DNA from: Bacillota bacterium
Lineage (GTDB): Bacteria > Bacillota > Clostridia > Lachnospirales > Bianqueaceae
Direction: 5' to 3'
Length of the DNA stretch: 64,000 nucleotides
Assembly: GCA_017441925.1 (NCBI GenBank)
Contig: JAFRUE010000001.1
Coordinates: forward strand, 1 to 64,000
The notes under the pieces were generated by a model. It was not told the DNA's origin. It saw only the letters and a list, made by a program, of their open reading frames with translations, and did no database searches. How positions within the stretch are numbered: position 1 is the first letter of the stretch; each line of letters opens with the position of its first letter. A program made the translations under genes and the position numbers. Below, one piece after another: positions 12,456-64,000 of the stretch.

Positions 12456-14060
12456 ATGAGCAACAGACCTAATATACTTATTTTCAATCCAGACGAGATG
12501 AGAGGAGACGTGCTGGCTCATCTCGGCAATCCTGCATCAATCACACCCAACCTGGACAGATTCGCTGCAGAAGAGGCAGTTTCATTCTCAAATGCATATT
12601 GTCAGAATCCCGTATGTGTTCCATCCAGGTGCAGTTTCCTGACAGGACTGTATCCTCATACCAGAGGACACCGTACGATGCGTTATCTGCTGCATCCCGG
12701 CGAAGACACAGTTCTGAAAGAACTGAAAGAAGCCGGATACTATGTCTGGATGAATTCCAGAAATGATTTCGCGGCAGGGCAGATCGACGGCTGGATGGAG
12801 AGTCATGCTTCGGAGACATATTACGGCGGACAGAAGAAGCACGGTCCCGGACCGCTGAATCCGGCTATCCGGGGTGAACCGGGCAGCAAATACTATTATT
12901 CCCACTTTAAGGGACAGCTTGGTGTCTCGGAAGACGGGAAGAATTACAACGGCGATGATGAGGTTGTGGATGCTGCGATCGACCGGATCCTGCATCCTGT
13001 CGATGACAGACCGCTTTGCATGTTTATGGGACTGTCATGGCCGCATGTGCCGTATGGCGTTGAGGAACCGTATTTCTCGGCGATAGACCGTAAGAAACTG
13101 CCGCGCAGAATCCGGGCGGACGAGTGTCAGGGGACGCCTAAACTCCTTGCACTGATCAAGAAGTATGCGGCCATGGATGAGTTTACCGAAGAGGACTGGG
13201 ACGAGCTGCGGGCAGTCTATCTTGGAATGTGCATGAAGGTCGACGAGCAGTTCCAGCGTGTTGTGGACGCTCTTAAGCAGGCCGGAATCTATGACAACAC
13301 AGCGATCTTTTTCTTCAGCGATCACGGTGATTTCGCCGGTGATTACGACCTGGTGGAAAAATCCCAGAATACTTTTGAGGACTGCCTGACCAGGGTGCCG
13401 CTGCTGATTAAGCCGCCTAAAGGTTATGATGTTGATCCGGGCGTCTCGGATTCGCTGACGGAACTGATCGATTTCTATGCGACAGCGATGGAGTTTGCGG
13501 GCGTGACACCGAATCATACACACTTTGGGAAGAGCCTCATCCCGGTCCTGAAAGACAGAAGCACTCCCAACCGCGAATATGTCTATTCCGAGGGCGGAAG
13601 GCAGCCTGATGAGATCCTGTGCGATGAGTTTCACGCAGATGGCACGTCTTACCCTGAGATCGAGTACTGGCCTAAGAAAATGGCACAGACGGATCATGAA
13701 GCCCATGCCAAGGGCATCATGATGCGGGATCATCATTACAAATACGTCAGCAGGACACTTGGGCGCGATGAATTCTACGATCTCGACAAGAATCCGGAAG
13801 AAACCGTCAATCTGATTGATGATCCGGAGTATGCTGACCGTATCAATAAGATGCAGATCGGGATGCTGAAGTGGCTGCAGGCAACCGATGATATCGTACC
13901 GTTTACACAGGACGGCCGCATGACAGTCGGTATGGCAAGAACCCGCGTAATGCCTATGGTACCGGACTATCTGAAGGACGATGTGGAGCAGAAGATCAAA
14001 GCAGGCGCCAACATAGGCGAACTGATGATGTATATCAGGAAGAAAACGAGAAAAGAATAA
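12456..14060 (+). CDS. Sulfatase (formylglycine type)
   Basis: 534 residues. The N-terminal NILIFNPDEMRGD gives the first metal ligands. The sulfatase signature CVPSRCSFLTG starts at Cys54, the residue that an anaerobic sulfatase-maturating enzyme would oxidise to formylglycine. FFFSDHGDFAGDY supplies the second metal site. There is no signal peptide, so it desulfates intracellular sugars. Position at the end of the araC-nagA-nagB operon suggests a sulfated amino sugar (for example from mucin or glycosaminoglycan) as substrate; this is inference. No maturase gene lies in the window. Confidence 0.9.
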   Translation: MSNRPNILIFNPDEMRGDVLAHLGNPASITPNLDRFAAEEAVSFSNAYCQNPVCVPSRCSFLTGLYPHTRGHRTMRYLLHPGEDTVLKELKEAGYYVWMNSRNDFAAGQIDGWMESHASETYYGGQKKHGPGPLNPAIRGEPGSKYYYSHFKGQLGVSEDGKNYNGDDEVVDAAIDRILHPVDDRPLCMFMGLSWPHVPYGVEEPYFSAIDRKKLPRRIRADECQGTPKLLALIKKYAAMDEFTEEDWDELRAVYLGMCMKVDEQFQRVVDALKQAGIYDNTAIFFFSDHGDFAGDYDLVEKSQNTFEDCLTRVPLLIKPPKGYDVDPGVSDSLTELIDFYATAMEFAGVTPNHTHFGKSLIPVLKDRSTPNREYVYSEGGRQPDEILCDEFHADGTSYPEIEYWPKKMAQTDHEAHAKGIMMRDHHYKYVSRTLGRDEFYDLDKNPEETVNLIDDPEYADRINKMQIGMLKWLQATDDIVPFTQDGRMTVGMARTRVMPMVPDYLKDDVEQKIKAGANIGELMMYIRKKTRKE

Positions 14061-22248: not shown

Positions 22249-25200
22249 TTATTGCAGCCGCTCCGTGATCTGCTGACGCAGCTGTCCGACATCCGGCACC
22301 GGATACGCATCAAAGCAGTTGTAGTAATGAATATATACCGTACCACGGTCCTTGCTCAGACCGCAGAAATGGCTGATCGTATAGAGCACATCGAAAGATT
22401 CGGAATGGATCACGACGCACGCGCCAGTACCTGGCAAGTACAGATAGCCATTACCGTTCTGACCGGATTCATAGATCCATCCTTGCGAAGGATTGAGAGA
22501 AGTAACCTGTTCCCGCTGTGTTTCAACCAGCGTCAGCCCTTCCTTCTCCAGCCGGACCAGATATCCGGCCTTGTCGAGTACACATAAGGCATTTTCGACC
22601 AGGATCAGCTCTACAGCTTCCGGATCCTCCGATTCACATACGAGGCTGCCGTCCGTACAGGAATAGCCGATGATCCTATTATTCCAGCGTATATAGATCT
22701 CCTGATCGGTTTCCTTCCACAGATAGGATTCATCGGTGACGATCCGGCTGAGCTGCGGGAGATCCTCACAGTTCAGGATTTCACCGGTTTCGAGGTTCAG
22801 GATCCAGAAAGTGAGGCCGCCTTCTTCCACACTGTAATCAACAAGACTTAGCAGCAGATATTGACCGGAAGGGGAGACGGACAGAACGCTTTTGGATAAG
22901 TACGGATCATCATCCGGGTTTGAAATCGTCACTTCTGCAGGTTCCTGACCTGGCATGACTTTAAACCAGACATGGTCTGCGCTTCGCTCAATCACCAGAC
23001 AGTCTTCTCCCTGGACGTAAGACCATAAGTTGTATTCTTCATTGGAGAATTCCTGTTCTGTTTCACCTGACGTGATATCGACGATACGCAGAGTGTTATC
23101 TTCCCGTATCAGCAGACGGTCGCTGCCAAAGAACGAGACGCGCGGCAAAGCATCACAACGGATGGTCTGCAGGACTTTTCCGGACTCAGGATCCAGAACT
23201 GTAAGCTTGTAAGGATTGGACTGCCCAATGACGGCGAGCGTACTGTCAGCGTTGAGAATCGCTTCGCTGATGCCCCATTCATCGCCTTTGCCGGTCTGAA
23301 ACAGCGTCTTGCGCGCTTCATTGGTCAGTACGCGGTATAGAGATATCTCGCTCTCATTACCCCGGACGACCGCGTACAGATTATTGCCGTAAGCAACCCG
23401 ATTGACAGCGGTCCGGTATTCGCGGTCCTCAAAAAGCATTACAGATGAACTATTGCTGTCAAAGCGCCGGAGAGAGAAGAAGTACTCCAGCCCGCTTTCG
23501 TCGGTGACAAATACATGACCGTTCTCTGAGTAATAGACGTTTTTGACGGTACCGGGCAGCTGCTGGTTAAAGTACAGCCTTTTCGTCTTGGTATTCGCGA
23601 CAAAGAGGCGGTCACCGACAATGCCGAACACGATCGGGTCGGAATTCTGCGATCCGCTGTCCGGCGCTATAATCCCGGTGAAAGGCGCGCCGGGCAGGAA
23701 AGTCTGCATTTCTCCGGACCAGAGGAACGTGCCGTCCGTCAGACTGTATCCTTTAAAATAGGTCATGGCTTCGTCCAGAATGCCCGCAAAAGTATATCCC
23801 GTCACGCAGAGAGTATTTCCGTAAATGCTGTAAGAGGCTTCGCCCAGAGTCGCGTTCGCATAGAGTTCTGCCCGGAAAATCTCCTCCGGCATCTGCTGCG
23901 CGGTTCTGCAGACAATACAGTTCATGGAACCGTTTGAAGAAACCGTAAAGATCAGATATCCGTTGCTTTCAAATACTTTGTAATAATATGTATAGCCCAG
24001 CATTTCCTTCAGGGCATCCAGTTCGTAGCGTGCTTTTTCTGTCCCGTCGGTCGGATCGAGCAGCAGCAGATGATCATATGTATTGACCGGCACGAGACAC
24101 CCGGGCTGCAGCTGCGTGACAGGGAAATTCGCATAACTGTCGAGCTGGACGGACCAGAGGACGCTGCCGTCTTCCGGAGAGAGTTTGCTGACAGTCTTAT
24201 CCAGACTGGTCACATACATCGCGTTGCCGCCGTTTACAGGTATTTCATCTGTAATGGTCTTGTGGAACATAGGGTAGAGGGCAACATTCCCGACATTGTT
24301 GGAGAGAATACTGCCCACCGCGAAATTATAGACAGAAGCTTTCTGAATCTGAGGATCCCGGGAAAAGGCCACGTCAGAGACCGCCCCGAAGTCGGAGATC
24401 AGTTTCCCGGTCTCCGTGTTCCACAGAGACAGGCCGGAAACCGTACGGACGGCCAGTGTTTTGCCGTTGTTCAGAACGCACATATCGCTTGGTTGCGCAG
24501 AGAGCTTGATCTTCCTGACCGCGGTGAAAGTGTCCGGTTCGTAGGATCCGAGGAGGGATACGCTCTGACCGAAGACACCGCTGAGCGGTTCACCTTCTTC
24601 CGGATAGGCCTGCGCCACGGCTTCAAGCGCACCGTAGAGATCACCGTCTTTTTCCAGCATCTTGGACTCGCGCATCCACAGCTCCTGGTTGTTGCGGAGA
24701 AGCTCCGCGGCGTCCGCCTCGATCTGCCGTTTCTGGGACGAAATCGTGACGAGGGCGGAGGTGCTCAGGACGGCGGCTGTGCCGAGAATGGCTGTAACGC
24801 CGCCGAATAGAGCGGCTCTGCGGCGGTTGCGGCGCCGCTGGTCGCGGCGGTACAGGTCGTCGAAACCGCAGCCGAAGAGGGGCGCGGCGATGCGGAGGTA
24901 TTCGGTTTTAAGGCGCTTTAGCATCTGGGACAGAGACTTGGCGCTGACGTTGGCCGCCAGCGGCTCGATCTCGTTCTGGATCTCCTCGACGGTGCCGTCC
25001 GGCCGGGTAACCTGCCGTGTCTCATAGCGCAGCGCGTCCGGGAAGACCGGGGAATGATCAGGGTCATCGACGAGGAGCGGCAGGATGTTGCGGTTGCTGC
25101 CCCCGTGGAGCGCCTTGAAATACGTCACCTCCTGCATACACCACTTTGATTTCTCAAACTGGGGAGAGCAGATGACTACCAGAAAACGCGACTGCTCCAG

Positions 25201-25491
25201 CGCGGACTGGATGTCGGCGCCGAGATCGTTGCTCGTCGGCAGCTCGGACTCATCGCGGAAAAGGTGGAGCTTACGCGGCTTCGGCTGATTCTGACGAGCG
25301 GCAGGGTTCGGCTGGCCGTTCTGGCCGGAAGCGCCTGGCTGACTTTCTGCGTCAGCCTGATCCACCTGGCCGACGGCGCCTTTAGGCGGCGTATAGGTCT
25401 CGAGCAGTTTCTGCAGCCTGATCGCGATCGGCTTGTCCGGCGACAGATGCCGATAGGAGATAAACGCATCGTATTTGTATTGCTTTTCCAT
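22249..25491 (-). CDS. TIR-domain protein with transmembrane helix and C-terminal beta-propeller (WD40-like)
   Basis: 1080 residues. Residues 1-205 are a TIR domain: YDAFISYRH, RDESELP, and SPQFEKSKWCMQEV with the putative catalytic Glu121 of NAD-consuming TIRs. A Q/G/P-rich low-complexity insert (~37-72) interrupts it. A basic patch RRDQRRRNRRR leads into one membrane helix (227-252), then a short coiled coil. About 800 residues of repeated WD40/PQQ-like blades follow (ALGKTLAVRTVSGLSLWNTETGK-type units). The blades would lie outside the cell, or inside if topology is reversed. This resembles a receptor-like or defence-type NADase; the ligand is unknown. A promoter (25544-25572) and repeat element A lie upstream. 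Confidence 0.85.
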   Translation of the reverse strand: MEKQYKYDAFISYRHLSPDKPIAIRLQKLLETYTPPKGAVGQVDQADAESQPGASGQNGQPNPAARQNQPKPRKLHLFRDESELPTSNDLGADIQSALEQSRFLVVICSPQFEKSKWCMQEVTYFKALHGGSNRNILPLLVDDPDHSPVFPDALRYETRQVTRPDGTVEEIQNEIEPLAANVSAKSLSQMLKRLKTEYLRIAAPLFGCGFDDLYRRDQRRRNRRRAALFGGVTAILGTAAVLSTSALVTISSQKRQIEADAAELLRNNQELWMRESKMLEKDGDLYGALEAVAQAYPEEGEPLSGVFGQSVSLLGSYEPDTFTAVRKIKLSAQPSDMCVLNNGKTLAVRTVSGLSLWNTETGKLISDFGAVSDVAFSRDPQIQKASVYNFAVGSILSNNVGNVALYPMFHKTITDEIPVNGGNAMYVTSLDKTVSKLSPEDGSVLWSVQLDSYANFPVTQLQPGCLVPVNTYDHLLLLDPTDGTEKARYELDALKEMLGYTYYYKVFESNGYLIFTVSSNGSMNCIVCRTAQQMPEEIFRAELYANATLGEASYSIYGNTLCVTGYTFAGILDEAMTYFKGYSLTDGTFLWSGEMQTFLPGAPFTGIIAPDSGSQNSDPIVFGIVGDRLFVANTKTKRLYFNQQLPGTVKNVYYSENGHVFVTDESGLEYFFSLRRFDSNSSSVMLFEDREYRTAVNRVAYGNNLYAVVRGNESEISLYRVLTNEARKTLFQTGKGDEWGISEAILNADSTLAVIGQSNPYKLTVLDPESGKVLQTIRCDALPRVSFFGSDRLLIREDNTLRIVDITSGETEQEFSNEEYNLWSYVQGEDCLVIERSADHVWFKVMPGQEPAEVTISNPDDDPYLSKSVLSVSPSGQYLLLSLVDYSVEEGGLTFWILNLETGEILNCEDLPQLSRIVTDESYLWKETDQEIYIRWNNRIIGYSCTDGSLVCESEDPEAVELILVENALCVLDKAGYLVRLEKEGLTLVETQREQVTSLNPSQGWIYESGQNGNGYLYLPGTGACVVIHSESFDVLYTISHFCGLSKDRGTVYIHYYNCFDAYPVPDVGQLRQQITERLQ

Positions 25492-25642: not shown

Positions 25643-25906
25643 GGGGACACTTTTGCCGGGGTACGGCGGTAAAAGCGCCTATTTTTGTTATTTTTACCGC
25701 CAGGTTGGCTGAAAAAAAGCAAAAAAACCCGGATTTTTCAGCCGGAAAGAGTGACCGGCAACCGCAAACGGAGACCAAACGCCTTTAAAACGGTTCAAAT
25801 TTCCGAAAACAGGCTGATTTTCCGGCTTTTATTACGATCTATAGCGATAGACCGGCGGTAAAAAAAGACATTTATGAAACTTTTACCGCCGCAACCAACA
25901 CAAGGG
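25643..25906 (-). repeat. Interspersed structured element A (264 bp), GGCGGTAAAA hairpin family
   Basis: Compared with elements B and C this copy is inverted. Read on the minus strand it opens CCTTGTGTTGGTTGC, forms a first hairpin (GGCGGTAAAA...TTTTTACCGCC), has a middle section with the long-range arms AGCCGGAAA and TTTCCGGCT, then a last hairpin (GGCGGTAAAA...TTTTACCGCC) and closes with CCCCGGCAAAAGTGTCCCC. Both ends are conserved in B and C while the middle has diverged. It contains the core ATTTTTCAGCCGGAAAGAG (25733-25751, plus strand) also seen in B and D. No gene is encoded. It fills the 500-base gap between the TIR gene and the lipoprotein gene. Confidence 0.85.
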
Positions 25907-37697: not shown

Positions 37698-37961
37698 CCC
37701 TTGTGTTGGTTGCGGCGGTAAAAAATCGATTAATGCTGTTTTTTACCGCCGGTCTATCGTTATAAACTGCGAAAAATGCCGGAAAAACAGCTGTTTTTCA
37801 AGAATTATAAGCTGATTCAAGGGCATTTAGCCCTGATTTGGAGCTGCAGGCCTCTTTTCCGGCTGAAAAATCTGACTTTTTTTGCAAAAGTTCAGCTAAC
37901 GTGGCGGTAAATAAATCAAAAATAGGCGCTTTTACCGCCGCACCCCAGCAAAACTGTCCCC
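37698..37961 (+). repeat. Interspersed structured element B (264 bp), GGCGGTAAAA hairpin family
   Basis: Same architecture and same length as element A, opposite orientation. It starts CCCTTGTGTTGGTTGC, first hairpin GGCGGTAAAA/TTTTTTACCGCC, middle arms GCCGGAAA (37777 region) and TTTTCCGGC (37856 region), last hairpin GGCGGTAAA/TTTTACCGCC enclosing AAAAATAGGCGC, and end GCAAAACTGTCCCC. The core CTCTTTTCCGGCTGAAAAAT (37853-37872) is the complement of the core in A and D. It lies between convergent genes. Confidence 0.88.
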
Positions 37962-44302: not shown

Positions 44303-44360
44303 GCGGAAGGTGCAGATGCTGCCGCCTTGTGCTCATTTGATTCGTTCACCAGTGGGGCCC

Positions 44361-44576
44361 AGCTGAATTTTACGCGGTTTTTCGAAATTGTTCAGTATTT
44401 GGAGCCTCCTCTATGCTGAACGATACTGAACAAATCTGCATTTCTGCCCGATTTTTCAGCCGAAAAGAGACCTGCTGGCTGAATTACAGGAGATTTTTCT
44501 AATTTGTTCAGTATACAGAAGCAATTCTGTACTGAATGATTTGAAGTTTTGCTGAATTGTTCAGCCGGGGCATCCC
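44361..44576 (+). repeat. Structured intergenic element D: CTGAA/TTCAG hairpins around the same core as A and B
   Basis: The 545-base gap after the MATE gene holds repeated CTGAA and TTCAG words that pair into several hairpins: CTGAATTT/AAATTGTTCAG (44363-44394), GCTGAATT/AATTTGTTCAG (44478-44512 region), GTACAGAA-type palindrome (44511-44531), and GCTGAA/TTCAGC (44551-44565), followed by GGGGCATCCCC. In the middle sits ATTTTTCAGCCGAAAAGAG (44451-44469), nearly identical to the core of elements A and B. The layout hairpin-core-hairpin is kept while the arm sequence differs. No gene is visible. Confidence 0.65.
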
Positions 44577-44777
44577 CTCAACGGTTCAAAATGAGAAAAA
44601 GACTCTGCCTGATAGAAAACCGCGATCCTGGCGGACGATTAGGGACAGTATTCAGCCGCAAGAGAGTTGTCCAGACCATTGTCAGGGACAGTTACCACCA
44701 GTGGAGACTGTCATGGCAGAGTTCGTTACCTTTTATATTTGAACTGACTGCAAGCGCTTCCCGTTTTGTGCATAATG

Positions 44778-44786: not shown

Positions 44787-44813
44787 ACTGTCTGCAATGC
44801 AGGCAGTTTTTTT
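44787..44813 (+). terminator. Terminator hairpin overlapping the sdaA start region
   Basis: A 9-bp stem (44787-44795 with 44799-44807, one T-G pair), 3-base loop and seven T. It directly follows the -10 box, so it can stop read-through from the MATE operon. Transcripts from the local promoter would start inside the left arm and escape it. Confidence 0.6.
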
Positions 44814-46160: not shown

Positions 46161-46423
46161 ATCTTGTGTTCGTTGCGGCGGTAAAAATCTCATAAGTGTT
46201 GTTTTTTACCGCCGGTTTAGCTCTGTTGACCGTGAAAACAGCCTGCAAAATGAACTGTTTTCAGAAAATCCATGCTTTTTAGGGGCATCCAAGGAAGGTC
46301 TAGTATAGTAAACCAAGGGTTTGGCGGTAAAATCAGACCTTTTTGAGATATTTACTGCCGCAAACGGCGGTAAAATTAACAAAAATAGGCGCTTTTACCG
46401 CCACACCCGGCAAAAGTGTCCCC
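46161..46423 (+). repeat. Interspersed structured element C (263 bp), GGCGGTAAAA hairpin family
   Basis: Same orientation as B. It starts ATCTTGTGTTCGTTGC, first hairpin GGCGGTAAAA/TTTTTTACCGCC. The middle is diverged and has gained extra copies of the arm word (TTTGGCGGTAAAATC at ~46319, TTTACTGCCGC at ~46360). It ends with the last hairpin GGCGGTAAAA/TTTTACCGCC enclosing AAAAATAGGCGC and the tail CGGCAAAAGTGTCCCC. Lies between the convergent sdaA and symporter genes. Confidence 0.87.
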
Positions 46424-51875: not shown

Positions 51876-54800
51876 GTGAGAACAAACGGAAAATACGGAA
51901 AGGCTAAGATCCGTCAGAACTGGAGAAGGAGGCTTACCGGAGTCCTTGCCGGTATTATTGTGTTTACAACGACCTACTCTCTTATTCTGCCGGCAATCAC
52001 GCTGGATGAAAGCGCAGCCGAGAATGAGCCCGGTATCGTCCTGAATACACCGGAGGAATCTTCTGAAGCGGCAGCCGAGATCGTTGAGGTCGAGACGGTT
52101 GAAGAAGCCGAGGAGGAAGCCGCCGAACCTGCTGGCAAAGCAGAGGCAACCGAGGAGGCTGAAGCACCTGCTGAGAGTTCTGATGAAGTAATCACTGAGG
52201 AGGCAGAAACTTCTCAGGATATTTCTGTGTCTGAAGACGGCTCCGAAGCGGAAGATGCCGCAGCTGCAGAGAATTCAGAAGAAGAGACCGCTGCCCCTGC
52301 GGAAAGCTCTGAAGAAGTCGAAGTTGCAGCCGAGAGTTCTGTAGAAGAGATCGTTGCTGTAATAGAGAATTCAAAAGAAGAGACCGCTGCCCCTGCGGAG
52401 AGTTCTGAAGAAGTCGAAGTTGCAGCTGAGAGCACTGTGGAAGAAAACTCTGAAGAAGAGTCTGCAGCTCCGGCAGAAGTTGTCGTAGAATATCCTGCCC
52501 AGGATTTTGAAGCGGAAGCAGGAGACATTAAGGTCACTGTATCTGCACCGGAAGGTGCTTTCCCGGCCGGCACCACCATGACTGCCGTGATTGTCGAGGA
52601 TGAAGAAATCCTGACCGCTGCTTCTGAAGCGGTTGAGGGCGAAGCTCGTTCAATTTATGCAGTAGACATCATTTTCCGTGATGTTGACGGCACAGAGATC
52701 GAGCCGTTACAGCCTGTTCGTGTCAGCATGAGCTCCGCTGTCGTCAAAGAGGCAGAAGCCATCGAGGTTGTCCATGTCGATGATGAAGGTCTTGCCGAGG
52801 TCGTTTCCCAGGCTGAGGACGCAGAGACTGCAGATGATGAAGTTGTCTTCGATACGGATGGATTCTCGGTGTATGTTATTGTGGAAACAGAAGTTATCAC
52901 GGTAGATTACCTGACAGCGGATGGAGAGACATATACTATCACTGTTGAAGTTCCTGAAAGTGCAAAGATTCCTGAAGGAACAATTCTTGATATCACAGAA
53001 ATTCCTGCAGGAACTTCAGAATATGCTGACTATCTCACGAAGAGTAAAGAAATAATAGGCGAAGGAGAACTTTCCTTCGCGAGGATGTTTGATATCAATC
53101 TTGTATATAACGGAAAGAAAATAGAGCCAGAATGTAAAATCACTGTTTATATAGAATTGAATGACTCTATTGCTTTGGCAGAAGGGACTCGTCTATATGC
53201 TGTTCATTTCGGTGAAGAGGGCACAGAAAAGCTTTCCGTAAGCACTGTTGGTTCCAGTTACGGAACGATGCAAGATGTAACAGAAGTAAGCTTTTCAACA
53301 AATGGCTTGTCTCCGATAGTAATAACAGGTACAGAAGCTTATCCGACAGTTTCTCTAACTGCAACATCTACAAGAGCTGCTAACGATACAATTACGGTAG
53401 CTGTTGAGGGAGCAGGAGATACTACGGAGATAACCATTCCGCTTGGTGAATTCAGTGACAATGCAGATGCCCTAACAATCGATGGATATACTTTTGTTGA
53501 GGGATGGTATAATTCGATTAAGATAAACGGTATTTACAAAGATGACGATGGAGGCATCTATTTCGGTACAATCGAAGGCAATACTGTTACAGGCGTTGTA
53601 ATAGACCTTGCTAACGTGACACTTAAATATGAGGAAACAGTTGTTTCTCATAATGTAACCTTTGAAGTGGTTGTGGATGGTACGGTATCATCTGCTGCTG
53701 GCCGTGTGGATATAGCGGGAGCTAGCACACTGAAAGAAGGCCACGAGTATGACTTCTCAGCCGTTGCCCAAAACGGTTATTCCATAAGCAGTGTTACTAC
53801 TTCTTCTGGGGCTGTTGCTTCGGGCTCTGGAAGCACATATATTCTTACAGGTGCTACAGAGGATACAACAATCACTATTAATCTGAATGAACAAACTTTA
53901 TATAATGGCGGCTTTACATTTGCTGGATCGAATACTCGTCTTACTTATAACGGGACTAGTTATAATTCCTGGAATGGTAGCAACCATGATTATGTACGTT
54001 CATTTAATTATACGGCGACTGAAACCTTTGCATTTACATTAGGCGGAACAAACGAATGGTCTAACCTTACAAAGGTAATGAACCAGCTGTCAATCACCGT
54101 AGATGGTGATGCTCAGGCGGTGAGTATTCCAGATGTAACAGGAAGCACAGAAACTACTACACTTCGTAATGGTTATGTCGTTACTGTCACAAAAACTTCT
54201 GCTGGTCAGTATCCTACATATTCTGTGACAATAACAAATCCTGATGCTGACAACAAGGTAAGAGGACAAATCCATATCCAGACAAACTTTAAAGACGTCT
54301 CTTCTAGTGAGGTATGGGCAAAACAGTTAGATGGCGTAGAGCCTCTGGCATATAAGAAAACCACCGGTAATAACACAACAGGATTTGTAACTGCCGATGG
54401 TCAAGGAGATCAAAACAGTCGTCTGCAACCGGAAGTATATACGTTCTATTCCAGAGATACTTCTAATTCATCCTACTATTTTGTCAAGTTGGATGGAACC
54501 TATAATGTGGATGATTTGTATTTGACAGTTGTCAATTACAACGCATCTTCAGAAACTACATCGAATGTTATTTCTGAAATAAAGGTTTCATCGTTGGCAA
54601 CAATTAGTGGACTTGGGAATAGAATTAGGAATTATTTAACAACATACACCAACTACACGACTTCGGATTATTATTTCACTATTCCGTCCGGAACGACTAA
54701 CCTGACCGATATTCGTATCTATATTGTGTACAAACCGAATGTCGATGACAGCACTAAGTTTACAGTTTGGTTTGATAACAATGATGGAACTGCTATCTAT

Positions 54801-57800
54801 CAAGATTCAAATTCTAACGGAGAATACACCAGGGTACAGAATAAGGTGATTTCTTTGGCGGATACTCCTACCAGAAGCGGATATGTTTTTGATGGATGGT
54901 ATTTGGGTAGTGATTCTGACACCCTTTATCAGCCGGGAGATTTGTTTACCTTAAGCGCAGATGCTTTAAGTGCAGCTGATTCAGAACATAGAATGATCTT
55001 TAAGGCAAAATGGACGCCTGAAACAGAGGCTGTTTATGCAAACTATAAGATCAACGTATTTTTGGAAGGAGATGACGGAACCTATCCTGAAACACCTGAC
55101 TTAACAACGACAGAGCGAGGCAATATAGGTAGTACTGCTTACATCATTTCAGATGAGTTTGATAACTGGCTTGATACAAGACTGGATGACGGTTGGCGAG
55201 AAATCTACGAGTATGACCGCCAAACGACAGATACGCCAATTGCTGCAGATGGTTCAACAGAACTGAACATCTATTATCGACATAAAATGGCTGAGCTTAC
55301 TTTTGTGCCAGATACAGGTGTCGATCATATCGTAGTAACAATGCCGGATGGTACGGTGATTACCGGGGCTTCTGGTGAATCTGTAATAGCATCTGTAAAA
55401 ATACGTGAGTCGGGAACAATAACGGCTCAAGCAATAGCATCAGATGGATATGTGGTTAATGGATGGCATTTATCGACAAGCGACGGAACCTTGCTTACCG
55501 ATGCTACATCATTCAATCCAACTATTACAGACGTTGCTGGTTCAACAGAATGGACTGATAGAACGTATGTAGCCACCGCCGAAACAGCCAGGTCAATAAC
55601 GGTAACGAAAATCGCGAATGTACTCGGCACGATCGACATGACCGATCTTGATACTACGATTTATCTGGTGGTGTGGGATCACACAAGAAATGAAAATGTC
55701 AAGAATAGTGATGGGACATTAAGGGTTGAAACTATTCAACTTATTGATGGAGTACCTCAAGGAACGGCTGTATTCGATAATCTTCGTGAGGGTGTTTATT
55801 CCGTATGGGAAGTTACTGATGAAACGGGCGAGACGGATCTTTCTGCCGGAACGAAAGTTATGGAACCCGACGTTGTCATTTCGAAGATTGAAACCAAGAG
55901 TGGCGTAAGCGAAACAAACAGAGCTGATCTGACAGGCAATACTTTAAATGATGATGGGTACACCGTAACGAACACCTATAATCACGAATCGGATGTAGTT
56001 AATTGGACGATAACAAAAGCATGGTATTTAACCAAGAATGATACATCCAATCCGACAACAGATATTCCGTCAGGCTACACAGCTACACTTTCAATTTACA
56101 GGCAGGACGCTCAGGATACTGCTTTGCAGACCGTCGTACTCGATGGAACAGTAGACACGAATGGAGAAGCTGAGCCTTGGAAAGCTACGTTTGAGGAGCT
56201 TCCTGTTAAGGATCACGATGGTAATGCAATTAATTACATCGTAAAAGAAACAGCATTTACTCCAGAGCAGACTTCTGCGGGTGAGTATATTACTGCATTC
56301 CAAGATAGTGTTTCTAATGACGGAGGTACCATCAGAAACGGCGTTATTTATGGAAACTTGACATTGAACAAATCCGTAAATGCACCGGGAATAAACGATC
56401 TTTCAGAGTATATTTCCGGAATGACAATCACTGTAACTGGACCACACGGTTATTCACAGGAGGTGACATTTGAAGGAGCTGGTCCGAGATATACAGCTAC
56501 TTTGACCGATCTTCCTGCAGGAAATTACACAGTGGAAGAAACCGATCAGGAGACCATGATTTCGGATCGTAAGTGGATTGAGAGTGAATCCTCTATAACT
56601 ACGGCAAATAATCGTGATTTCGAGGAACTTGGAACCATGAAGATATCTTTCGATATTGCTGATGGTGTACCAAACGACACGGCCATTGTTAATCTTGTGA
56701 ACGATTATACAAATACTGACATAACCGTGACAAAAGTTTGGGACGATAAAGGCACAGTCGTTACAGACCATCCGGATGTATCGATTACACTGAAACGGAC
56801 TGTTGGTGAAACCGAAGAAACAATAAGCACGCAAAGCATTACGGATGAAGAGAATCTTACATTGACCTGGTCTCAAATGCCACAGCAATATTCGTATTCC
56901 GTAGAAGAAGCTCCTGTATATGGATATGATTCAACAGTTTCTGGTGACAAGATAAATGGTTTCACTGTGACAAATACAAAACGTGCCACTGGAACCCTTA
57001 CATTAACCAAGATTGTTGAAGGAGCTGATGCAGCCAAAGAGATTACTTATACGATTACGCTGACTCCGAAAGGCTTTGCACAGAATGCAACAACATATGA
57101 GTTAAAGCCTACAAGCGGCAATGATTCGATAGTGATTACTGACTTGCCAATTGGCAGCTATACAGTAACTGAGGTTCTGACCGGAGCTGATATCGATGAT
57201 TATGATCGAGTAACAGTAATCTCCGATGGGACAAATACAAATGAATATACCTCTCCGGCTGCACAAGATGTCGAAATTGTTGAAGGTGATAACACTGTCA
57301 CTGTGACCAATAAGTACACGCTTAAGACTGAACCTGTCTCATTTAAGAAAGTGGATCAAGGGCATCAGGACAAGGTTCTCGAAGGTGCAATCTTTACAAT
57401 GACTTACGAAGATGGCACAGAGTATACCTTGACATCTACGGATGGAATCTTCTGGGCGGTAGATGCTGAAGGAAACACTATCAAAGAGCTTCCCGTCGGC
57501 AAATATTCAATAACAGAGACAACAGCACCGGAAGGTTATAACAAAGCAGGCGCGATCGAGGTTAATGTAGCTACAACAGGGGTTACATATACTCAGGTTG
57601 ATAATCAAGGAGGAGAACCGCAGACAGCAGAATTGACTGATGATCACGAGTTCCTGGTTATCATTACCAATACTTCCGGCGCTGGATTACCTAATACCGG
57701 CGGTCCCGGCACACTACTTTATACATTGAGCGGTTTAGCACTTATGCTTGGTGCCGCTTTGATGTACGGCTTCAGGATGAGGCGTAGAGAAAGGAGGTTA

Positions 57801-57806
57801 AGTTAA
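51876..57806 (+). CDS. Giant LPNTG-anchored pilus adhesin with Cna_B/SpaA domains
   Basis: 1976 residues from GTG 51876 (AAGGGGG upstream). A long positively charged signal (RRRLTGVLAGIIVFTTTYSL then ILPAITLDE) is followed by a Glu/Ala/Ser-rich stalk with two 32-residue repeats. Next come a folded region, an InlB-like repeat (SGYVFDGWYLGSDSDTLYQP ~1000-1040), and at least four Cna_B domains ending with GKYSITETTAPEGYN. The anchor LPNTG (1938-1942), a hydrophobic helix and RMRRRERRLS complete it. It is probably the tip adhesin. The central part is clearly A/T-richer than both ends. Confidence 0.9.
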   Translation: MRTNGKYGKAKIRQNWRRRLTGVLAGIIVFTTTYSLILPAITLDESAAENEPGIVLNTPEESSEAAAEIVEVETVEEAEEEAAEPAGKAEATEEAEAPAESSDEVITEEAETSQDISVSEDGSEAEDAAAAENSEEETAAPAESSEEVEVAAESSVEEIVAVIENSKEETAAPAESSEEVEVAAESTVEENSEEESAAPAEVVVEYPAQDFEAEAGDIKVTVSAPEGAFPAGTTMTAVIVEDEEILTAASEAVEGEARSIYAVDIIFRDVDGTEIEPLQPVRVSMSSAVVKEAEAIEVVHVDDEGLAEVVSQAEDAETADDEVVFDTDGFSVYVIVETEVITVDYLTADGETYTITVEVPESAKIPEGTILDITEIPAGTSEYADYLTKSKEIIGEGELSFARMFDINLVYNGKKIEPECKITVYIELNDSIALAEGTRLYAVHFGEEGTEKLSVSTVGSSYGTMQDVTEVSFSTNGLSPIVITGTEAYPTVSLTATSTRAANDTITVAVEGAGDTTEITIPLGEFSDNADALTIDGYTFVEGWYNSIKINGIYKDDDGGIYFGTIEGNTVTGVVIDLANVTLKYEETVVSHNVTFEVVVDGTVSSAAGRVDIAGASTLKEGHEYDFSAVAQNGYSISSVTTSSGAVASGSGSTYILTGATEDTTITINLNEQTLYNGGFTFAGSNTRLTYNGTSYNSWNGSNHDYVRSFNYTATETFAFTLGGTNEWSNLTKVMNQLSITVDGDAQAVSIPDVTGSTETTTLRNGYVVTVTKTSAGQYPTYSVTITNPDADNKVRGQIHIQTNFKDVSSSEVWAKQLDGVEPLAYKKTTGNNTTGFVTADGQGDQNSRLQPEVYTFYSRDTSNSSYYFVKLDGTYNVDDLYLTVVNYNASSETTSNVISEIKVSSLATISGLGNRIRNYLTTYTNYTTSDYYFTIPSGTTNLTDIRIYIVYKPNVDDSTKFTVWFDNNDGTAIYQDSNSNGEYTRVQNKVISLADTPTRSGYVFDGWYLGSDSDTLYQPGDLFTLSADALSAADSEHRMIFKAKWTPETEAVYANYKINVFLEGDDGTYPETPDLTTTERGNIGSTAYIISDEFDNWLDTRLDDGWREIYEYDRQTTDTPIAADGSTELNIYYRHKMAELTFVPDTGVDHIVVTMPDGTVITGASGESVIASVKIRESGTITAQAIASDGYVVNGWHLSTSDGTLLTDATSFNPTITDVAGSTEWTDRTYVATAETARSITVTKIANVLGTIDMTDLDTTIYLVVWDHTRNENVKNSDGTLRVETIQLIDGVPQGTAVFDNLREGVYSVWEVTDETGETDLSAGTKVMEPDVVISKIETKSGVSETNRADLTGNTLNDDGYTVTNTYNHESDVVNWTITKAWYLTKNDTSNPTTDIPSGYTATLSIYRQDAQDTALQTVVLDGTVDTNGEAEPWKATFEELPVKDHDGNAINYIVKETAFTPEQTSAGEYITAFQDSVSNDGGTIRNGVIYGNLTLNKSVNAPGINDLSEYISGMTITVTGPHGYSQEVTFEGAGPRYTATLTDLPAGNYTVEETDQETMISDRKWIESESSITTANNRDFEELGTMKISFDIADGVPNDTAIVNLVNDYTNTDITVTKVWDDKGTVVTDHPDVSITLKRTVGETEETISTQSITDEENLTLTWSQMPQQYSYSVEEAPVYGYDSTVSGDKINGFTVTNTKRATGTLTLTKIVEGADAAKEITYTITLTPKGFAQNATTYELKPTSGNDSIVITDLPIGSYTVTEVLTGADIDDYDRVTVISDGTNTNEYTSPAAQDVEIVEGDNTVTVTNKYTLKTEPVSFKKVDQGHQDKVLEGAIFTMTYEDGTEYTLTSTDGIFWAVDAEGNTIKELPVGKYSITETTAPEGYNKAGAIEVNVATTGVTYTQVDNQGGEPQTAELTDDHEFLVIITNTSGAGLPNTGGPGTLLYTLSGLALMLGAALMYGFRMRRRERRLS
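52269..52460 (+). repeat. 96-bp in-frame tandem repeat in the adhesin stalk
   Basis: GAGAATTCAGAAGAAGAGAC at 52269 recurs at 52365 with few changes, giving two 32-residue units (core TAAPAESSEEVEVAAES). Recombination would change stalk length without breaking the frame. Confidence 0.85.
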
Positions 57807-62971: not shown

Positions 62972-64000
62972 ATGTCGAGTCAGTTACGCAGGATGGCAGC
63001 TTTACTGTTAGCATTTATGATGGCTTTCAGTCCGCTGTTTGACAATGTACGCGTAATAGCAGCAGATGACAGTGATGTTGTTGCTGCAGAGACAGTGGAT
63101 GAGACATCCGATGAGGCCGAATCCGTTGAAGAGGAAGCCGCAGCGACATCGGAAATCGAGGCGGTAGTCTCAGATGCCGAAGAGCAGCCGGAAGAGGCTG
63201 CTGAAGCTGTGGAGGACGAGGCACTCGTCGAGGAAGAAGCTCCTGCAGAAGAGGAAGCAGCTCCCGCCGAGGAAGAGGCTCCTGTAGAAGAGGAAGCAGC
63301 TCCTGTCGAGGTAGAGGCTCCTGCAGAAGAGGAAGCGGCTCCCGCCGAGGAAGAGGCTCCCGCAGAAGAGGAAGCAGCTCCTGTCGAGGAAGAGGCTCCT
63401 GCAGAAGAGGAAGCAGCTCCTGTCGAGGAAGAGGCTCCTGCAGAAGAGGAAGCAGCTCCCGCCGAGGAAAAGGCTCCTGTAGAAGAGGAAGCAGCTCCCG
63501 CCGAGGAAGAGGCTCCTGCAGAAGAGGAAGTAGCTCCCGCCGAGGAAGAGGCTCCTGTAGAAGAGGAAGCAGCTCCTGTCGAGGAAGAAGCTCCCGTAGT
63601 AGAGGAAGCCCCTGTCGAGGAAGAGGCTCCCACAGAAGAGGAGGCTCTTGCAGAAGAGGAAGCTGAACCTGAGGTGACATATCAGGCCGGTACCTTCACA
63701 CGCACCGGAAACGGCTATGTCATCACGGTCAGCTATGATGAGAACGCATGCCTTCCGGAAGGCACGCTTCTTTTCATCAACGAGCTGACAGAGAAATTCG
63801 TCGCTTATGATTCTTATTATGAAAAAGCAGAAGAGGCTGTAGCTTCCGATGAGAACACTAAGATCAAGGAAGCCCGTTTCTTCGATATTACCTTCACATA
63901 TAACGGCGAAGTAATTGAACCGCAGTCTCCCATTAATGTGGTCATCAAGGTTCAGTACGAAGAAGCTGTTGAAAGCGAGGATGTTTCTGTTGTCCATATT
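62972..64000 (+). CDS. N-terminal part of a large surface protein with an EAP-rich repeat stalk (runs off the window)
   Basis: Open from ATG 62972 (TGGAGG 9 bases upstream) to the end, 343 residues visible. Signal peptide MSSQLRRMAALLLAFMMAFS, then ~55 acidic residues. About ten 13-residue units of the type AEEEAAPAEEEAP follow (from residue 86 to ~230). A folded region begins TYQAGTFTRTGNGYVITVSY, similar in style to the domain after the stalk of the adhesin at 51876 (ITFTYNGEVIEPQSPINVVI versus the adhesin's INLVYNGKKIEPECKITVYI). Probably another LPXTG adhesin. Confidence 0.85.
   Translation, partial: MSSQLRRMAALLLAFMMAFSPLFDNVRVIAADDSDVVAAETVDETSDEAESVEEEAAATSEIEAVVSDAEEQPEEAAEAVEDEALVEEEAPAEEEAAPAEEEAPVEEEAAPVEVEAPAEEEAAPAEEEAPAEEEAAPVEEEAPAEEEAAPVEEEAPAEEEAAPAEEKAPVEEEAAPAEEEAPAEEEVAPAEEEAPVEEEAAPVEEEAPVVEEAPVEEEAPTEEEALAEEEAEPEVTYQAGTFTRTGNGYVITVSYDENACLPEGTLLFINELTEKFVAYDSYYEKAEEAVASDENTKIKEARFFDITFTYNGEVIEPQSPINVVIKVQYEEAVESEDVSVVHI
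63227..63670 (+). repeat. 39-bp coding repeat array
   Basis: Roughly ten near-identical 39-base units (GAAGAGGAAGCAGCTCC core) encode 13-residue blocks alternating AAPA/AAPV and EAPA/EAPV. Units differ by synonymous and Ala/Val changes; the last two are degenerate. Confidence 0.9.

Follow-up and report, generated by a model that had tools for sequence, protein, structure and literature searches.

Helically phased arrays of 37-bp dyads form a dispersed, genus-specific family of intergenic elements in a Bianqueaceae bacterium

Element D, located in a stretch of 64,000 nucleotides of a Bianqueaceae genome (here the window), is an array of four dyads of 37-38 bp. It belongs to a family of intergenic non-coding elements that is dispersed in the genome and specific to the genus, and in these elements inverted half-site words recur at distances of whole helical turns on DNA with a strong predicted intrinsic bend. 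We consider it somewhat probable that these BIME-like dispersed elements act as double-stranded DNA, offering a bent, one-faced platform to a DNA-architectural protein. Two reports (PMC3940949, PMC3431218) call it unclear why phased A-tracts are present in many bacterial genomes, and a genus with discrete, countable elements, in which palindromic sites coincide with helical phasing and a predicted bend, makes this question testable. Furthermore, the turnover of the words between sister species, with the geometry kept, is a natural experiment on how a DNA-binding protein and the sites it binds co-evolve.

Architecture of Element D and of Its Relatives in the Window

Element D lies just after a MATE gene and extends between two end motifs (Table 1). 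It is composed wholly of CTGAA-word dyads, whose centres are 63.5, 52.5 and 53 bp apart, and its arms are not in full agreement, GGCTGAA or AGCTGAA being paired with TACTGAA. With at most one mismatch, this dyad pattern has three matches in the window, all of them inside D, vs 0.02 expected. A sequence-only reading of the window had divided D differently, into a 19-nt core shared with the neighbouring elements A and B and hairpin arms at its two sides. The 19-mer, ATTTTTCAGCCGAAAAGAG, is indeed found at 44451-44469 and has relatives in A (25733-25751) and, inverted and with 3 mismatches, in B (37853-37871), against a chance expectation of 0.06; direct reading of the sequence also confirmed CTGAATT and AATTGTTCAG at both sides of it. 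The division itself is wrong: the supposed core is not a separate module, since it consists of the right half-site of dyad 2 (TTTTTCAGCC) and 8 nt of spacer, and in A it closes the dyad GGCTGAAAAAAAGCAAAAAAACCCGGATTTTTCAGCC (25707-25743). Nor is D the frame of A and B with its arm word swapped, since in both A and B the GGCGGTA dyads are already accompanied by a CTGAA-word dyad. That reading did not include the features most telling on mechanism, namely the dyad of 37 bp, its phasing at 10.5 bp and the curvature predicted for the element.

Table 1. Positions in the window of the elements and of the parts of element D
Feature	Position	Strand	Description
Element A	25665..25890	-	Dyads at 25665, 25707, 25854; words GGCGGTA, GGCTGAA, GGCGGTA; pitch 42, 147
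Element B	37714..37939	+	Dyads at 37714, 37861, 37903; pitch 147, 42
Element C	46177..46402	+	Dyads at 46177, 46323, 46366, all GGCGGTA or GGCAGTA; pitch 146, 43
Element D	44325..44649	+	From left end motif CCTTGTGCTCATTTG to right end motif GGGACAGT; ends read directly
D, left end motif CCTTGTGCTCATTTG	44325..44339	+	Read directly
D, dyad 1	44361..44397	+	AGCTGAA ... TTCAGTA; centre 44379
D, dyad 2	44424..44461	+	TACTGAA ... TTCAGCC; 38 nt here, 37 in homologue
D, dyad 3	44477..44513	+	GGCTGAA ... TTCAGTA; centre 44495
D, dyad 4	44530..44566	+	TACTGAA ... TTCAGCC; centre 44548
D, right end motif GGGACAGT	44642..44649	+	Read directly; near many arrays in this genome

The sole near-full-length homologue of D lies at an unrelated locus of the same genome (G000:C1:86194-86490) and is 85% identical over 297 bp, corresponding to window positions 44353-44649. 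Several further arrays use the CTGAA grammar, and D-type arrays sharing it occur on C12, C5 (two), C16, C10 and C1. They read GGCTGAA -30- TTCAGTA -23- TACTGAA -30- TTCAGCC -32/33-, then repeated, so that each site is asymmetric, with GG at one end and TA at the other, the orientation alternates and short (23) steps between facing half-sites are followed by long (32-33) ones.

Elements A, B and C belong to a single class, mostly with the half-site GGCGGTA. GGCGGTA elements have CTTGTGTTGGTTGC immediately next to their first dyad, and past the last one GGGACAG is found in one orientation or the other. The two outer ends differ (CTTGTG... vs GGGACAG...), an observation that bears on MITEs derived from DDE transposons, which have terminal inverted repeats and a target duplication. 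At about 170 bp from A is the start of a gene (22252-25491, - strand) whose large product has, by Pfam, a TIR domain as well as PQQ-type repeats, and which could be a signalling or defence gene.

The 37-bp Dyad and Its Words

A scan for inverted repeats in 460 kb of this genome revealed a sharp excess at a length of 37 nt, where 29 perfect 9-bp cases with a C.G core were found, vs 0-5 at other lengths and none at length 37 in shuffled sequence. When half-sites were defined more loosely, 118 pairs were found at this length vs 6-18 at the neighbouring lengths within 33-41, in a sample that was drawn from searches of the genome, from single loci and from stretches adding up to about 400 kb, and that is biased towards known copies. 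In each dyad an A/T-rich middle of 19 bp separates two half-sites, each of about 9 bp and inverted to one another, and the GGCGGTAAAA hairpins are themselves 37-nt dyads; the strict pattern occurs 24 times in this genome and is absent from 40 relatives, of which two belong to the same genus.

The two arms of a dyad covary. They agree in 93 of the 118 dyads at position 4 (shuffle mean 37.5, max 54), in 110 at position 6 (shuffle mean 63.1, max 82) and in 68 at position 1 (shuffle mean 47.8, max 66); positions 3, 5 and 7 were fixed by the definition of the half-site and are not counted as evidence. At position 2 agreement is at chance (79/118 vs a shuffle mean of 78.8), because D-type dyads pair GG with TA, and in fact the commonest CTGAA dyad is the mixed one, GGCTGAA with TACTGAA (19 cases, vs 5 and 3 matched). 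The proposal of a set of elements sharing one architecture and differing in their words thus holds, with three classes in this genome (GGCGGTA, AGCAGAA and CTGAA), and the words are largely, not always, self-consistent. The stricter expectation that arm words always agree within a copy fails, also because words are often mixed within an element, as at C15:48094, where GGCGGTA, GGCTGAA, GGCAGAA and GGCGGTA follow one another. A protein family matching the word groups, also suggested in that reading, was looked for and none was found.

Helical Phasing

The distances between neighbouring dyads, 52 in number, ranging from 39 to 199 bp and taken from 24 automatically found arrays, are not spread evenly: they cluster at 42, 52/53, 62/63, 73, 105, 115/116, 126, 137, 146/147, 178/179 and 199, and only 39 and 124 lie off the clusters. 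Among periods from 7 to 16 bp the best is 10.50 bp (R=0.918, p~1e-19, n=52), for pitches that are not fully independent because elements of one class have common ancestry. The periodicity is retained when each pitch value is counted once (R=0.87 vs a null 99th percentile of 0.69) and when only distances >65 bp are considered (R=0.93 vs a null 99.9th percentile of 0.76). The sister species G002 independently repeats the result, with a best period of 10.55 (R=0.94, n=17 distances), in a pitch set that omits one step of 69 bp leading from an array of one class to an adjacent array of another.

Predicted Curvature

The A/T-tracts follow the same rhythm. In 26 elements the autocorrelation of AAA/TTT peaks at 11, 21, 31, 42, 52 and 63, at 1.7-2.3x expectation, and drops to 0.12-0.35 between the peaks. 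The common phase of dyads and A/T-tracts leads to a predicted intrinsic bend with every dyad on the same side. With a dinucleotide wedge model, whose output is a prediction, the same 26 elements have a mean curvature z of -5.6 vs dinucleotide shuffles; in 200-nt windows the median predicted end-to-end/contour ratio is 0.64 for arrays vs 0.93 for other intergenic DNA, in which the signal is only weak. The predicted bend is weaker in AGCAGAA arrays than in the other classes. The arrays thus combine an A/T-tract period of ~10.5 bp with a predicted bend above background, the two traits of curved phased-A-tract DNA, and they resemble in their 10-11 bp tract repeat and predicted intrinsic bending the prokaryotic phased A-tract signals presented in PMC4060949, PMC3940949 and PMC3431218. 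Unlike those genomic signals, they are discrete repeated elements with inverted half-site words at a fixed 37-bp spacing.

Distribution and Turnover Between Sister Species

The elements come and go between this genome and G002, and their words turn over with the geometry kept, as indicated by the comparison of matching loci. At the locus of D, G002 has an inverted element, whose words are of the GGCGGTATA type and after which comes an AGCAGAA array, and at that of C it has GGCGGTATA-type dyads, whereas at two further array loci of our genome the matching intergenic DNA of G002 holds no array. The empty sites matching array loci are too diverged to display any target duplication. A second G002 array beside the same transporter gene (L185:3315-3584) has mixed dyads pairing GGCAGAA with TACAGAA and is the D design with T changed to A in both arms (CAGAA for CTGAA).

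The AGCAGAAAA dyad was examined in public genomes, in 113 stretches, and among the loci listed arrays appeared only in the sister-species MAG RUG12817. Five further genomes of the family, as sampled, showed no 37-bp arrays, D had no match in phages and plasmids, and neither its pattern nor the GGCGGTA dyad matched in viral contigs.

Proposed Mechanism and Alternative Explanations

Phasing that holds across words and spacer lengths, together with phased A-tracts, would be required by a protein assembling on one face of bent double-stranded DNA and is difficult to account for by recognition of a single strand or of RNA. Dyads strung at whole helical turns (10.5 bp), with A- and T-tracts in the same phase, would allow the element to work as double-stranded DNA, as a bent platform with a single active face. 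A candidate dimeric DNA-architectural or nucleoid-type protein (or a gyrase/IHF-like wrapping complex) may assemble cooperatively on the array, and this assembly would organize or topologically insulate the intergenic space. The element itself would spread as a small non-autonomous repeat, and its half-site words would drift by paired changes. Against this stands the variation of words among the dyads of one element, which fits poorly with a single sequence-specific protein. A bolder form, in which an undescribed chromatin-like system relies on a dimeric protein that reads the paired words, assembles one-faced at exact helical spacing on bent DNA and coevolves with the words, each species rewriting them genome-wide with the geometry kept, seems to us rather unlikely.

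The dyads might instead be single-stranded hairpins of the REP/BIME type, recognized and copied by a RAYT-type (Y1) transposase, in which case architecture and word turnover would derive from mobilization and bending would have a secondary role or none; we regard this as possible, if unlikely. The arrays share with the BIMEs of E. coli and Stenotrophomonas their arrangement as short palindrome arrays, dispersed between genes in many copies, the species-specific sequence, the complementary arm changes and the mixed (hybrid) arrays, and the regularly spaced REPs of BIMEs also alternate in orientation (PMC2817692), a likeness that, with the short and long spacers, is confined here to the D class. 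As a single strand, D folds better than expected by chance (RNA z=-4.4, DNA z=-4.9), as inverted repeats should. In L104, a genome of the same order, a RAYT gene is flanked by GGGACGGTTC and GGGACGGTGCTCAT repeats resembling the element ends GGGACAG and GTGCTCAT, which keeps this explanation alive. However, single-strand recognition would not predict a 10.5-bp phasing, the arms of D-type dyads are mismatched at positions 1-2, and the arrays differ from BIMEs in the 37-bp dyad unit with its 19-bp A/T-rich middle, in helical-turn phasing and in phased A-tracts. In the flanks listed, the constant sequences next to the dyads are CTTGTG... and GGGACAG..., and no GTAG head like that of classical REPs was seen. 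Furthermore, neither a RAYT with an intact HUH motif nor a cognate RAYT flanked by the arrays' repeats was found in this genome, which is 97.9% complete, making this absence less than absolute. Its sole Pfam Y1 match is an IS200-like TnpA at C10:7122, in a gene stretch with no arrays; the sequence around this IS200 copy shares no dyad words with the arrays, whereas the ends of an IS200/IS605-type non-autonomous element (PATE) would match those of a resident copy, and a single GGGACAG is found some 200 bp past the gene. A RAYT-like profile search retrieved one more, divergent protein (L334:1459-2259, - strand; G000:C4:719310-720065), encoded beside ftsY with no adjoining array, in which both HUH histidines are replaced; no arrays were seen in the sampled DNA of the genomes hosting its relatives. 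Similar genes also adjoin ftsY elsewhere in the family (L113, L115, L116), which suggests a domesticated transposase.

Transcribed RNA elements with covarying stems, such as 3'-UTR hairpins, attenuators or stability elements, would account for the paired arm changes and for the stable predicted RNA fold of D, and a terminator-like site at 44787, downstream of D, indicates that D may be transcribed. This explanation is nevertheless improbable: 10.5-bp phasing and phased A-tracts suit B-form DNA over RNA, D-type dyads lack full arm pairing, no Rfam family was matched in the window, and the inverted G002 element at the locus of D means that the direction relative to the upstream gene is not conserved. 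Equally improbable, in our judgement, are degenerate selfish repeats with no present function, with bent A-tract DNA merely carried along as they spread. Dispersed copies, locus turnover and an inconsistent gene context (7 tandem, 6 convergent and 2 divergent, by ORF calls) agree with such repeats, but the phasing is retained from one word class to another, in two species and over many different spacer lengths, which points to continued selection on geometry.

The res sites of the Tn3 family, bound by dimers of serine resolvases, have dyads with outer recognition sequences, A/T-rich middles and whole-helical-turn spacing; they differ from the present arrays, which are many and dispersed, with 2-6 dyads and changing words. 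We treat links to resolvases and to integrons as leads.

Other Repeats

Other repeats were noted alongside the 37-bp arrays. The sequence GGGACAGTTC was considered as a lone marker, with 102 occurrences vs 10 reversed in this genome, but it was not relied on by itself, as most of its sister-species sites that were read proved to be coding. In G001, of the same genus, two intergenic tandem arrays have a 32-bp period (L310:5309-5532 and 12649-13000), and the latter contains a 19-bp palindrome of the form TCTATGCCAC.GGCATAGA, in a layout unlike that of the 37-bp dyads. Within the window, internal repeats are present at 52268-52444, inside a 1976 aa ORF (51876-57806), and internal repeats of 18/21 nt at 63074-63683, in a large ORF starting from 62972.
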